A stretch of 64,000 nt of DNA from Dehalococcoidia bacterium (GTDB lineage: Bacteria; Chloroflexota; Dehalococcoidia; SpSt-223). The stretch lies in NCBI GenBank assembly GCA_025054935.1, contig JANWZD010000001.1, forward strand, positions 513,008 to 577,007. The letters run 5' to 3'. The notes beneath the pieces are model-generated. The model worked only from the letters and a program-made list of their open reading frames with translations, searched no databases and was not told the DNA's origin. The translations under genes were made by a program, and so were the position numbers. Shown here piece by piece: positions 30,484 through 57,522 of this stretch. Within the stretch, counting starts at the first letter, position 1; each line of letters opens with the position of its first letter.

Positions 30484-30513
30484 TTGACGGGACGAGAACA
30501 AATGTTCTATTCT
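30484..30513 (+). promoter_or_regulatory. Sigma-factor gene promoter with LexA-like operator in the spacer
   Basis: TTGACG (30484-30489), 18-base spacer, TATTCT (30508-30513). The spacer ends with GAACAAATGTTC (30496-30507), which fits the Gram-positive LexA core GAAC-RNRY-GTTC; the dyad extends to AGAACA-AA-TGTTCT. A repressor bound here would block RNA polymerase. This makes SOS control of the next gene likely. Confidence 0.7.
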
Positions 30514-30570
30514 CAACGCGGGATGAGCCCCCGCTGAGCGCGGGGCGATCGCGGCGGAAGGAGCGCTCCG

Positions 30571-31110
30571 CTGAACTGCAGCTACCACCCTCTCTACGCT
30601 CTTGTCCTCGCTTCTCAGGCGGGCGACCGCGCCGCTCAGGAAGCATTAGTCGAGCGGTTTCAGCCGCTTCTCCGTTCGCTCTGCCGAGGCTGGCCCGACT
30701 ATGAGGAGCACTATCAGGAGATGGTCTGCCAGTTTCTCGAACTGGTTCGCGACTACGATCCCAGCAGCTCCATTTACTTCGGCCACTACATCAAGGTGAA
30801 ACTCGCCTGGCGGATGAAAAACTACCGTCGCCGCATTCGGCAGCGAACGCGGCCGGAAACGCCGCTGCCCGCGCCGGAGCACGCCATCGCTGCCGCGCCT
30901 GACCTTATCGAGCGTGTCGACGTGGAGATCGCGCTGCAGCGGCTGTCGGCGCGCCAACGCGACGTCCTCATCCGGTCGTACTGGCACGACGAGGACGCGG
31001 CACCGATCGCGCGCGCGCTTGGGATCAGCGCGCGCGCTGTCCGCGCTCTCCGGCTGCGCGCCGAGCGCCGGCTCGCTGCGCTTCTTGGCGAGAAGCAGGG
31101 TCCCCCGTAG
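30571..31110 (+). CDS. Small sigma-70-like factor, apparent CTG start
   Basis: A 179-aa ECF/group-5-like sigma factor. Region 2 is seen in LASQAGDRAAQEALVERFQP, EMVCQFLELVRDYDPSSS and FGHYIKVKLAWRMKNYRRR; region 4 in IALQRLSARQRDVLIRSYW and IARALGISARAVRALRLRAE. An in-frame TGA at 30535 and GGAAGGAG at 30556-30563 with 7-base spacing leave CTG 30571 as the only sensible start; ATG 30721 would delete half of region 2. No anti-sigma gene is adjacent. The architecture recalls UviA/TcdR/BotR factors, and UviA is damage-inducible. Confidence 0.8.
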   Translation: MNCSYHPLYALVLASQAGDRAAQEALVERFQPLLRSLCRGWPDYEEHYQEMVCQFLELVRDYDPSSSIYFGHYIKVKLAWRMKNYRRRIRQRTRPETPLPAPEHAIAAAPDLIERVDVEIALQRLSARQRDVLIRSYWHDEDAAPIARALGISARAVRALRLRAERRLAALLGEKQGPP

Positions 31111-31153: not shown

Positions 31154-31576
31154 GTGCGCGCGCTTCTTCCTCTGCTCGCGCTTCTGCTCTGTGCCAGCTG
31201 CGGGTGGAGCAGCCCGATACGGGAAGCAGAAGAGCAGGCGCTCGCGGCGTTCCGCGCCGAGTTTGGCGGGGTCGGCCGCCGCCCGCCTTGGACAACCAAG
31301 ATCAGGATCGCCCCTGACGGCGATTGGGTCGTCCGCGAGATCAGCCATCTCGCCGTCGAGACCCGCCTCGTCGCGCTCGACGATGAGGCGCGCCGGCGCG
31401 GGGTTGAGTGGCGCGGCGAGGTGATGGTGACCTACTGGTCGCGGGTGATTGACGCAGCCGCTTGGCGCGGGCCAGCACTGCCCAGTTCGTGGGACCAGTA
31501 CGCGGCGCTCTATCGCGTCGAACGCGCCGACGGCCGCCTCATCGTCGCTCCCGTGCTGCCTTCCCCCGGGTTCTGA
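31154..31576 (+). CDS. Small exported protein, possible lipoprotein
   Basis: A 140-aa product starting MRALLPLLALLLCASC, a short signal peptide whose CAS-C end only loosely fits a lipobox. The mature part (AFRAEFGG, WVVREISHLAVETRLVALD, YAALYRVERADGRLIV) matches no family I know. It ends 4 bases before the sugar-1-phosphate transferase gene and is probably cotranscribed with it. Start at GTG 31154 is supported by the leaderless promoter and signal peptide. Confidence 0.65.
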   Translation: MRALLPLLALLLCASCGWSSPIREAEEQALAAFRAEFGGVGRRPPWTTKIRIAPDGDWVVREISHLAVETRLVALDDEARRRGVEWRGEVMVTYWSRVIDAAAWRGPALPSSWDQYAALYRVERADGRLIVAPVLPSPGF

Positions 31577-39021: not shown

Positions 39022-39939
39022 ATGGAGCACGGAACCACGAGTCCCACCCAACCGATGACGGTGTCCGAGGATGGGCGCCGTTTTCTTCTGCCGGCGATCG
39101 ACCCCGTCGTCAACCTCTGGACCGCCGAGGACATCGCCGTTTTCCCCGACCACCTGAACGAATTTTGGGAGCGCATCCGTCTCAACGAGCAGTTCAAGCG
39201 CGGCGTTGAGATCGAGCAGATGATCGAGATGATGGACCGCGCCAATATCGAAATCGCCTTTCTCTTAGCAGCGCGGGGCGGCGAATGGGAGATCACCTAC
39301 AAACGGGTGTATGACGTCTGCGAGCGCTACCCCGACCGCTTCCGTCCGATCGCCGGGATCGACCCGAACCGCGGGATGGCCGGCGTCAAGGAGCTCGAGA
39401 TCGCCGTCACCGAGTATGGCTTCATCGGGGCCCATCTCTACCCCCATTGGTTCGGCATGCCTCCGGACCACGCCCTCTATTTCCCCTACTACGCCAAATG
39501 CGCCGAACTCGAAGTGCCGATTCAGATCCAAGTCGGGCATTCCGCGCAGCGGCGGATGCCCACCGTCGCCCGGCCGATGGCGCTTGACATGGTGGCGATC
39601 GCGCTGCCCGAACTGAAACTGTTCTTGATCCACACCGGCTGGCCCTATATCGGGGAGTCGATCTCGGTTGCGTGGAAACATGAACATGTCTATATCGGCA
39701 CCGATGCCCATGCGCCCCGCTACTGGGAACCCGAGTTCATCCAGTTCATCAATACGCGCGGGCGCAAGAAGGTGATCTTCGGCACCGACTGGCCGATTAT
39801 TGACTTCGAGCGCGCGCGGCGAGAGATCCTCGAGATCGGCATCCGGGATGAGAGCATGCCGTGGCTGATGCGCGAGAACTGCCGACGGCTCTACGATCTC
39901 TGGGAGCTTCCGCCGACCCCAGGCACCGAAGGGGAGTGA
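39022..39939 (+). CDS. Amidohydrolase-2 family protein lacking the N-terminal metal motif
   Basis: A 305-aa TIM-barrel protein like the ACMSD and gamma-resorcylate decarboxylases. Retained blocks: RPIAGIDPNRGMAGV, PIQIQVGHSAQRRMP, LFLIHTGWPYIGESI and KKVIFGTDWPIIDFERAR. Where the family normally has an N-terminal D-x-H-x-H metal motif it reads AIDPVVNLW, so two metal-binding His are absent. It may be a non-metal or non-catalytic member. No strong ribosome site; ATG 39022 sits about 25 bases after the predicted transcription start. First gene of a three-gene operon with an acyl-CoA ligase. Confidence 0.78.
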   Translation: MEHGTTSPTQPMTVSEDGRRFLLPAIDPVVNLWTAEDIAVFPDHLNEFWERIRLNEQFKRGVEIEQMIEMMDRANIEIAFLLAARGGEWEITYKRVYDVCERYPDRFRPIAGIDPNRGMAGVKELEIAVTEYGFIGAHLYPHWFGMPPDHALYFPYYAKCAELEVPIQIQVGHSAQRRMPTVARPMALDMVAIALPELKLFLIHTGWPYIGESISVAWKHEHVYIGTDAHAPRYWEPEFIQFINTRGRKKVIFGTDWPIIDFERARREILEIGIRDESMPWLMRENCRRLYDLWELPPTPGTEGE

Positions 39940-56133: not shown

Positions 56134-57522
56134 TCAGGCAAGCAGCTCAGTGAGCAGCCCGATATCCGCGAGGCGGTCGAGACGGTCGACCGCTTCTTCA
56201 AGCTGGCGCGCGCGCTCCGCGCCAAGGATCGGCTGAGCGCGCCGGCGGTAGAGCAGGCGCACGGTTTCGCCTTCGCGCTCGGGGTCGGTGATTGGCGGAA
56301 GGGGGGCGCTCAGAGCGGGGATCGCCTGGCCGTCGCGCAGACGCACAACCGCCTCAACGCGCGTCGCTGCCGCCGTCAACGCCGTCAGGCGCTCGCTGCC
56401 GGGCAGGCGGTGGAGACGGACGGCGGCAGTCAGCCGCTGCACCGCAGGGTCAGGGTGCGGCACCGTCGCGACATCGGCGAGATCCCACTGCTCACGGGTC
56501 AAGGCGAGGGCACACGCTCGGCCGATGCTGAAGTGCGCTTCGCTCGGCGAGCGCGGCACGACAACACCGTAGACGGCCTCCATTGCCGGGCTGACCCAGC
56601 AGTCGACCGCCTCGACCTCCGCTGCGGTGAAGCCCGCAGCGCGCTGCGCCTGCTGCAGCCCCCGGATCAGCCCAGAGAGACCGCTCGAAAACTGGTACTG
56701 CTTCAGCTGAAAGCCGTCTTCGGCAAGGATGCAGCCCTCACCGAGGCCGCTCGTCAGCGGGGTGATGTCCGCAACGCCGCCGTACGCCTGACACCATGCC
56801 GCCACAGCGCGCGGCGACGCCTGCATTCCACGCGCAGCCAGTTCGGCGCAGAAGACGGCGAGCGAGGCGCCGAGCGGCGTGCGCAGGGTCGAAACCGGCG
56901 CCGGCGCTTGGGCGATGAGACCGGCGCCCATGTCGCACGCGAGCGCGATCGCCTCGGCGATCCCGCGTTCGTCCAGCCCGGCGAGCCGAGCCGCAACCGC
57001 GGCGGCAGCTGGAGTGTGGGTCGGCGAGACAAACGCCTTCGCAGCACCCTCCACCCCGGGCCGGATTGCGTCGCCGAGACGGGCCGCAACTTCCCACCCG
57101 GCGATGAAGGCAGCGAGCAGTTCTCGGCCATGCACGCGCCGCTCCTCGCCCACCGCAAGCGCCGCCGCGCCGAGCACGGCGCTCGCGTGCGTCCGCGCCC
57201 GCGGGCTGAAATCGTCGGTGTGGCTCGCCATCGCGGTCCCCGCGCTCACCAACGCCGCAAGCTGGGGATGGGTGCGGCGGCGCGCGAAGAGGACGGTAGC
57301 CGCCGGCACCGCAGCGAAGCGCTCAACGTAGTCGAGCAGCGCCGCCCGCGCAGGGTTGAGCGCCGGATCGCTGCCGGCGGCAATGCCGCCGAGGAGGTTG
57401 AGCAGCGCCAGCTTTGCGAGCGCGACCGCGCGCGCCGGTACGTCCTCTAGGCGCAGGCTCGCCGCATAGCGGGCGAGGGCGCGCAGCGCATCCTCCTCCA
57501 GCGCTCCCCACGCTTCCGTCAT
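56134..57522 (-). CDS. MmgE/PrpD family protein
   Basis: A 462-aa member of the 2-methylcitrate dehydratase / iminodisuccinate epimerase family: LALLNLLGGIAAG, ASHTDDFSPRARTHASAVLG, FVSPTHTPAAAAVAARLAGLDE, and the C-terminal SEAHFSIGRACALAL. The substrate is not predictable, and there is no prpB/prpC nearby. ATG 57522 follows AGGAGAG. Convergent with the reductase gene, 4 bases apart. Confidence 0.88.
   Translation of the reverse strand: MTEAWGALEEDALRALARYAASLRLEDVPARAVALAKLALLNLLGGIAAGSDPALNPARAALLDYVERFAAVPAATVLFARRRTHPQLAALVSAGTAMASHTDDFSPRARTHASAVLGAAALAVGEERRVHGRELLAAFIAGWEVAARLGDAIRPGVEGAAKAFVSPTHTPAAAAVAARLAGLDERGIAEAIALACDMGAGLIAQAPAPVSTLRTPLGASLAVFCAELAARGMQASPRAVAAWCQAYGGVADITPLTSGLGEGCILAEDGFQLKQYQFSSGLSGLIRGLQQAQRAAGFTAAEVEAVDCWVSPAMEAVYGVVVPRSPSEAHFSIGRACALALTREQWDLADVATVPHPDPAVQRLTAAVRLHRLPGSERLTALTAAATRVEAVVRLRDGQAIPALSAPLPPITDPEREGETVRLLYRRRAQPILGAERARQLEEAVDRLDRLADIGLLTELLA

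Follow-up and report, generated by a model that had tools for sequence, protein, structure and literature searches.

A small sigma factor gene and its promoter

The stretch analyzed here, a window of 64,000 nt from a Dehalococcoidia genome (G000), carries on its plus strand a gene for a sigma factor of 179 aa with regions 2 and 4 (positions 30571 to 31110, with the stop codon at 31108 to 31110). Pfam returned Sigma70_r4_2 above its cutoff (3e-9) and Sigma70_r2 below it (0.0064), and the NCBIfam model TIGR02937, which stands for the general sigma70-ECF superfamily, matched above its cutoff (4e-14). The AlphaFold model contained two helical domains and a flexible linker (pLDDT, 87; pTM, 0.55), and a Foldseek search with this model matched ECF/sigma-70 structures. 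By these matches and the model, the protein belongs to the sigma-70 family, is of ECF size, and has a predicted sigma2-sigma4 fold.

Translation probably starts at the CTG at 30571, 7 nt after the Shine-Dalgarno sequence AAGGAG (30558 to 30563). Because the frame holds no ATG, GTG, or TTG ahead of the ATG at 30721, which falls inside region 2, this CTG is probably the sole plausible start. The sigma gene of one congener, G001, also has a CTG start, with an in-frame stop just upstream, and so unusual a start codon may keep expression of the sigma factor low. In the second congener, G002 (L041), one inserted base, about 16 codons (about 50 bp) into the gene, breaks the frame from the CTG, by an assembly error, through the use of another start, or by decay. 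The next ORF (31154 to 31576, plus strand) encodes a putative lipoprotein of 140 aa with no Pfam family; it follows the sigma gene in G000 and G002 and is not beside it in G001, where the next gene is a convergent dehydrogenase-like ORF and not the lipoprotein/GT4 pair. It is plausible that the sigma factor has no cognate anti-sigma factor.

The sigma gene promoter is made up of a -35 element, TTGACG (30484 to 30489, plus strand; TTGACA in both congeners), a spacer of 18 bp (30490 to 30507), and a -10 element, TATTCT (30508 to 30513, plus strand; TACTTT and TACTCT in the congeners). As read from the sequence, the last 12 bp of the spacer are GAACAAATGTTC (30496 to 30507, plus strand), a predicted LexA operator (SOS box) that abuts the -10 element, lies 63 bp from the start of the sigma gene, and shares its motif with lexA and recA. 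The initial annotation had placed an exact SOS box between the -35 and -10 elements, and its sequence and positions were confirmed as stated. Its interpretation of the site as a LexA operator in a sigma-70-type promoter of a small sigma factor gains support from the motif used in the same genome and from conservation among orthologs.

A genome-wide count of GAAC-N4-GTTC was dropped as proof of the box, since the count is at background: the 3.57-Mb genome contained 55 such sites versus 58 for a reversed control pattern. Two sites occurred in the window versus 0.76 expected, and at least two were seen in 19 of 100 shuffles, so that this number is not significant alone. The exact 12-mer GAACAAATGTTC was present in four copies in the genome versus 0.08 expected under a dinucleotide model, the arrangement TTGAC-N4-8-GAACN4GTTC-TA occurred a single time in the window, and the chance of a box in any given 120-bp promoter window was 0.0018. 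The excess of the exact 12-mer, the position in the promoter, the conservation in the congeners, and the presence of boxes at the genome's own lexA and recA together put the sigma promoter box beyond chance.

The sigma factor orthologs in G002 and G001 were 73% and 61% identical, respectively, and the box was kept at the same promoter position in both (CTTGACAGGCATAGAACATTTGTTCTACTTT in G002 and CTTGACAAGAGTAGAACACTTGTTCTACTCT in G001). Box-like, inexact sites (GAACATTTGAGC, GAACATATGTGC) precede sigma homologs in two lineages that belong to other families of the class, namely, G005 (TTGACACAAATAGAACATTTGAGCTAT; 37 to 41% sigma identity) and contig 121 of G008 (TTGACATTAGTAGAACATATGTGCTAATATT; 39%). 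Conservation upstream of orthologs, by which the initial annotation had proposed to judge the box, is thus seen in both congeners and is degenerate in two further lineages; no sigma ortholog was found among the named genomes searched.

The 5′ leader (30520 to 30563, plus strand) consists of GGGATGAGC, a GC-rich inverted repeat, and GCGGCGGAAGGAG, the Shine-Dalgarno sequence included. The arrangement of GGGATGAGC, inverted repeat, and GCGGCRGAAGGAG is common to G000, G001, and G002, with one copy per genome. The leader had no Rfam match at the gathering score, only a subthreshold, chance-level one, and its folding energy was nothing unusual and no better than that of shuffles.

LexA and its motif in the same genome

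The genome of G000 gave one strong LexA match only (LexA_DNA_bind, 2.9e-19). The full protein is 212 aa long, with VKGQSM and AAG motifs recognized by eye, and comprises DNA-binding and self-cleavage domains. A box, GAACAGACGTTC, lies about 30 bp before the first HMM-matched codon of lexA, and the lexA genes of both congeners carry an identical one. Elsewhere in the class, lexA boxes were found in G008 (GAACTAACGTTC) and G023 (GAACACATGTTC), and the lexA promoter of G005 has a degenerate site, GAACTGATGTGC, with the same GTGC right arm as the sigma box of G008.

Two recA genes were present in G000, each cut by a contig end. Upstream of the gene on contig C16 (L039/L077) is a box, GAACAAGAGTTC, at a distance of about 30 bp from the probable ATG, and the gene on C4 (L038) has no LexA box upstream. 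Further boxes were located upstream of ruvC (40 bp), ssb (114 bp), and uvrD/pcrA (roughly 16 bp from a GTG), with gene identities assigned by Pfam. The initial annotation had allowed that the LexA of this genome might recognize another motif; its own lexA and one recA carry GAAC-N4-GTTC, which argues that it does not. The sigma operator matches this motif, and membership of the sigma gene in the GAAC-N4-GTTC LexA regulon is supported accordingly at the level of sequence.

The other three exact copies of GAACAAATGTTC precede a radical-SAM/SPL-like gene, a 190-aa ORF (L019 1605-2174), and a 150-aa ORF (L020 1527-1976) that lies upstream of a frame judged by eye to be PolA-like. Neither boxed ORF belongs to a Pfam family, and both are possible new SOS genes.

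Linkage of the sigma factor family to lexA across Chloroflexota

The family was searched with a profile (A2) built from six homologs, LexA-boxed sequences and their homologs. Neither the profile search nor the phylogenetic tree used promoter or neighbor information, and many of the genomes compared were fragmented assemblies. Members of the sigma clade scored 76 to 150 bits across the phylum versus about 72 bits and below for other sigma factors. A lexA gene was located directly upstream of the sigma gene, on the same strand, in G507, G549, G419, G605, G528, G577, G594, and G680, as well as in all five g252 genomes (G531, G461, G422, G496, and G587); in the five cases tested by Pfam, the upstream gene was confirmed by LexA_DNA_bind and Peptidase_S24 matches. 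In most genomes, the two genes were separated by anything between a few bp and about 110 bp; in g252, the gap was about 240 bp. Two exact boxes stand in place of lexA upstream of the sigma homolog of G410; G614 has only a degenerate site, seen by eye within TTGACG-N17-TATAGT; and the sigma copy on contig 218 of G008 lies next to neither a lexA gene nor a box. Among the surveyed loci, a tblastn scan found a LexA neighbor for 14 members of the sigma clade and for not one of the other sigma loci, which numbered about 60.

In the tree, 19 SOS-linked sigma factors and one control, that of G570, were set apart from 29 of the 30 controls (support, 92/95), and the G570 gene was later found directly behind lexA. 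The deep members of the clade were only 25 to 40% identical. A single origin of the clade is likely and stops short of proof, as the split was not starred in the tree and its support was moderate. LexA linkage holds in all but one or two members. The wiring to LexA appears to be a property of the sigma family, provided by its own box in some lineages and by apparent cotranscription with lexA in most others. Where lexA and the sigma gene form an operon, the promoter ahead of lexA showed no clear GAAC-N4-GTTC, so autoregulation of these operons is an assumption.

A probable additional layer of SOS control

The SOS response is usually drawn as single layered, with LexA coming off and the repair genes coming on. 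The arrangement described above very probably represents a second tier, in which a LexA-repressed promoter drives a stand-alone sigma factor and DNA damage probably switches on a second set of genes through it. From the position of the operator next to the -10 element, we infer that in the undamaged cell LexA bound at 30496 to 30507 would cover the spacer and block the housekeeping RNA polymerase. Upon DNA damage, RecA-triggered self-cleavage of LexA would free the promoter, the sigma factor would be made from its CTG-started message, and it would then bind RNA polymerase and redirect it to promoters of its own. Sigma factors under LexA repression, many of them encoded immediately after lexA, would give the SOS response such a layer across the phylum, and the link opens a direct and testable way to the regulon.

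To our knowledge, no description exists of a sigma factor family that is integrated, phylum-wide, into lexA operons or into promoters with a LexA box. No paper combining lexA, a sigma factor, Chloroflexota, and an operon was found in the literature searched, a body that leaves out most subscription papers. A LexA-controlled sigma factor is itself of a known kind: in Corynebacterium glutamicum, a proposed LexA box overlaps the sigma-A promoter P4 of the ECF sigma gene sigH, and the authors connect SigH with SOS and repair genes (PMC3489674). Unlike the sigma gene described here, sigH has P4 as one of several promoters, its product has an anti-sigma factor, RshA, and the case concerns one species and not a lexA-linked family. 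SigG of Mycobacterium tuberculosis is a DNA damage-inducible alternative sigma factor whose regulon does not consist of repair genes; it is induced via a RecA-independent (RecA-NDp) promoter, in contrast to the LexA box found here (PMC3776920). The Clostridium UviA/TcdR/BotR group resembles our protein, by analogy, in consisting of small sigma factors. The target of UviA is a bacteriocin, and several genes of the group lie on mobile elements (PMC4885068); the parts of the source consulted describe no lexA operon linkage for the group, a difference from the present clade. In Rhodobacter, the gene transfer agent (GTA) activator GafA is sigma-like and GTA production needs LexA, but GafA differs from a canonical sigma factor, and LexA is thought to exert its effect via CckA (PMC9638019).

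Candidate targets and alternative explanations

A set of phage-packaging or GTA-like genes is the likeliest single candidate for the regulon. On contig C5 of G000 (L160 506-8284), a portal gene is followed by scaffold, major capsid, and lysin-like genes, and a terminase gene (G000:C5:17588-18949) is located about 9 kb from this capsid cluster. In G000, a LexA box precedes the matched start of portal by 46 bp, and G001 and G002 likewise have boxes just before portal. The promoter that holds these boxes is conserved among the three congeners and has an unusual -35 region, CATACCGTTT-N11-CCGAAYGGATAYAGAAC. The portal gene is single copy, with identities of 93% and 84% to its counterparts in the congeners, and the G002 cluster is situated among ordinary chromosomal genes, with no integrase seen in a reading of the ORFs only. 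Head genes at a fixed place, apparently kept vertically and lacking an integrase, have a GTA-like look, as far as genes tell.

That the SOS-induced sigma factor mainly activates this domesticated phage or GTA-like packaging system, much as UviA activates a bacteriocin, is a possibility that we put forward tentatively. In G410 and in each of the five g252 genomes, the sigma gene, alone or together with lexA, is oriented divergently from terminase/portal at a distance of about 1 to 3.3 kb, although such physical linkage was limited to 2 of 12 genera. The terminase family was present in 13 of 16 sigma-clade genomes versus 108 of 384 others (P = 2.5e-5) and, counted by genus, in 9 of 12 versus 73 of 213 (P = 0.01); it is, however, also common in genomes without the sigma factor. 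Moreover, the LexA boxes in the capsid promoter could act without a sigma factor. The motif of the portal promoter, ACCGTTT-N15-18-GATA, was rejected as a sigma consensus, since portal is the only site at which G000, G001, and G002 all have it. The region upstream of the terminase gene contains a block conserved in G000 and G002, with no LexA box and no motif shared with portal. Whether the sigma factor is, Chloroflexota-wide, the part of an SOS switch (with lexA or under a box) that damage uses to start GTA-like packaging is doubtful on the present evidence. The LexA-sigma link may explain how phage-derived packaging genes of Chloroflexota respond to DNA damage.

The terminase family turned up in all listed genomes of family f13, and 121 of 400 Chloroflexota genomes had it overall, a spread that points to a widespread and perhaps vertically kept packaging system. 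An SOS-boxed ORF of 119 aa on contig C8 of G000 (position 57361; L032 1191-1547) had a weak match (29%, 8e-5) to a small ORF before the terminase gene of G410, and no prophage was seen around this gene.

The initial annotation had offered the nearby envelope glycan genes as a possible regulon, and this proposal was not borne out. Glycosyltransferase genes flank the sigma gene in G000 and G002, and one G008 homolog also lies near polysaccharide-type genes; the neighborhood is different in G001 and in the lexA-sigma lineages, no common promoter was found, and adjacency alone is a weak argument, so that control of the neighboring glycan genes by the sigma factor is improbable.

A decaying gene or mobile element relic without a regulon would account for the CTG start, the G002 frameshift, and the fact that one homolog adjoins phage genes (in G410) and another a tyrosine recombinase-like ORF (on contig 218 of G008). 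Such a relic is hard to reconcile with a frame that is intact in both G000 and G001 and encodes a conserved sigma2/sigma4 core, with the conserved promoter and leader, and with the phylum-wide lexA linkage, and we regard it as quite improbable. Least credible is a chance palindrome before a sigma gene that is constitutive or under other control, which agrees with the lack of genome-wide enrichment of GAAC-N4-GTTC as such (55 versus 58) but not with a box that sits in a promoter, is kept in the congeners, has box-like counterparts in two other lineages, and belongs to a sigma family adjoining lexA. The second GAAC-N4-GTTC site of the window, at 39727 to 39738 (GAACCCGAGTTC), has a non-RNRY core, lies inside an apparently coding stretch, and is itself likely due to chance.
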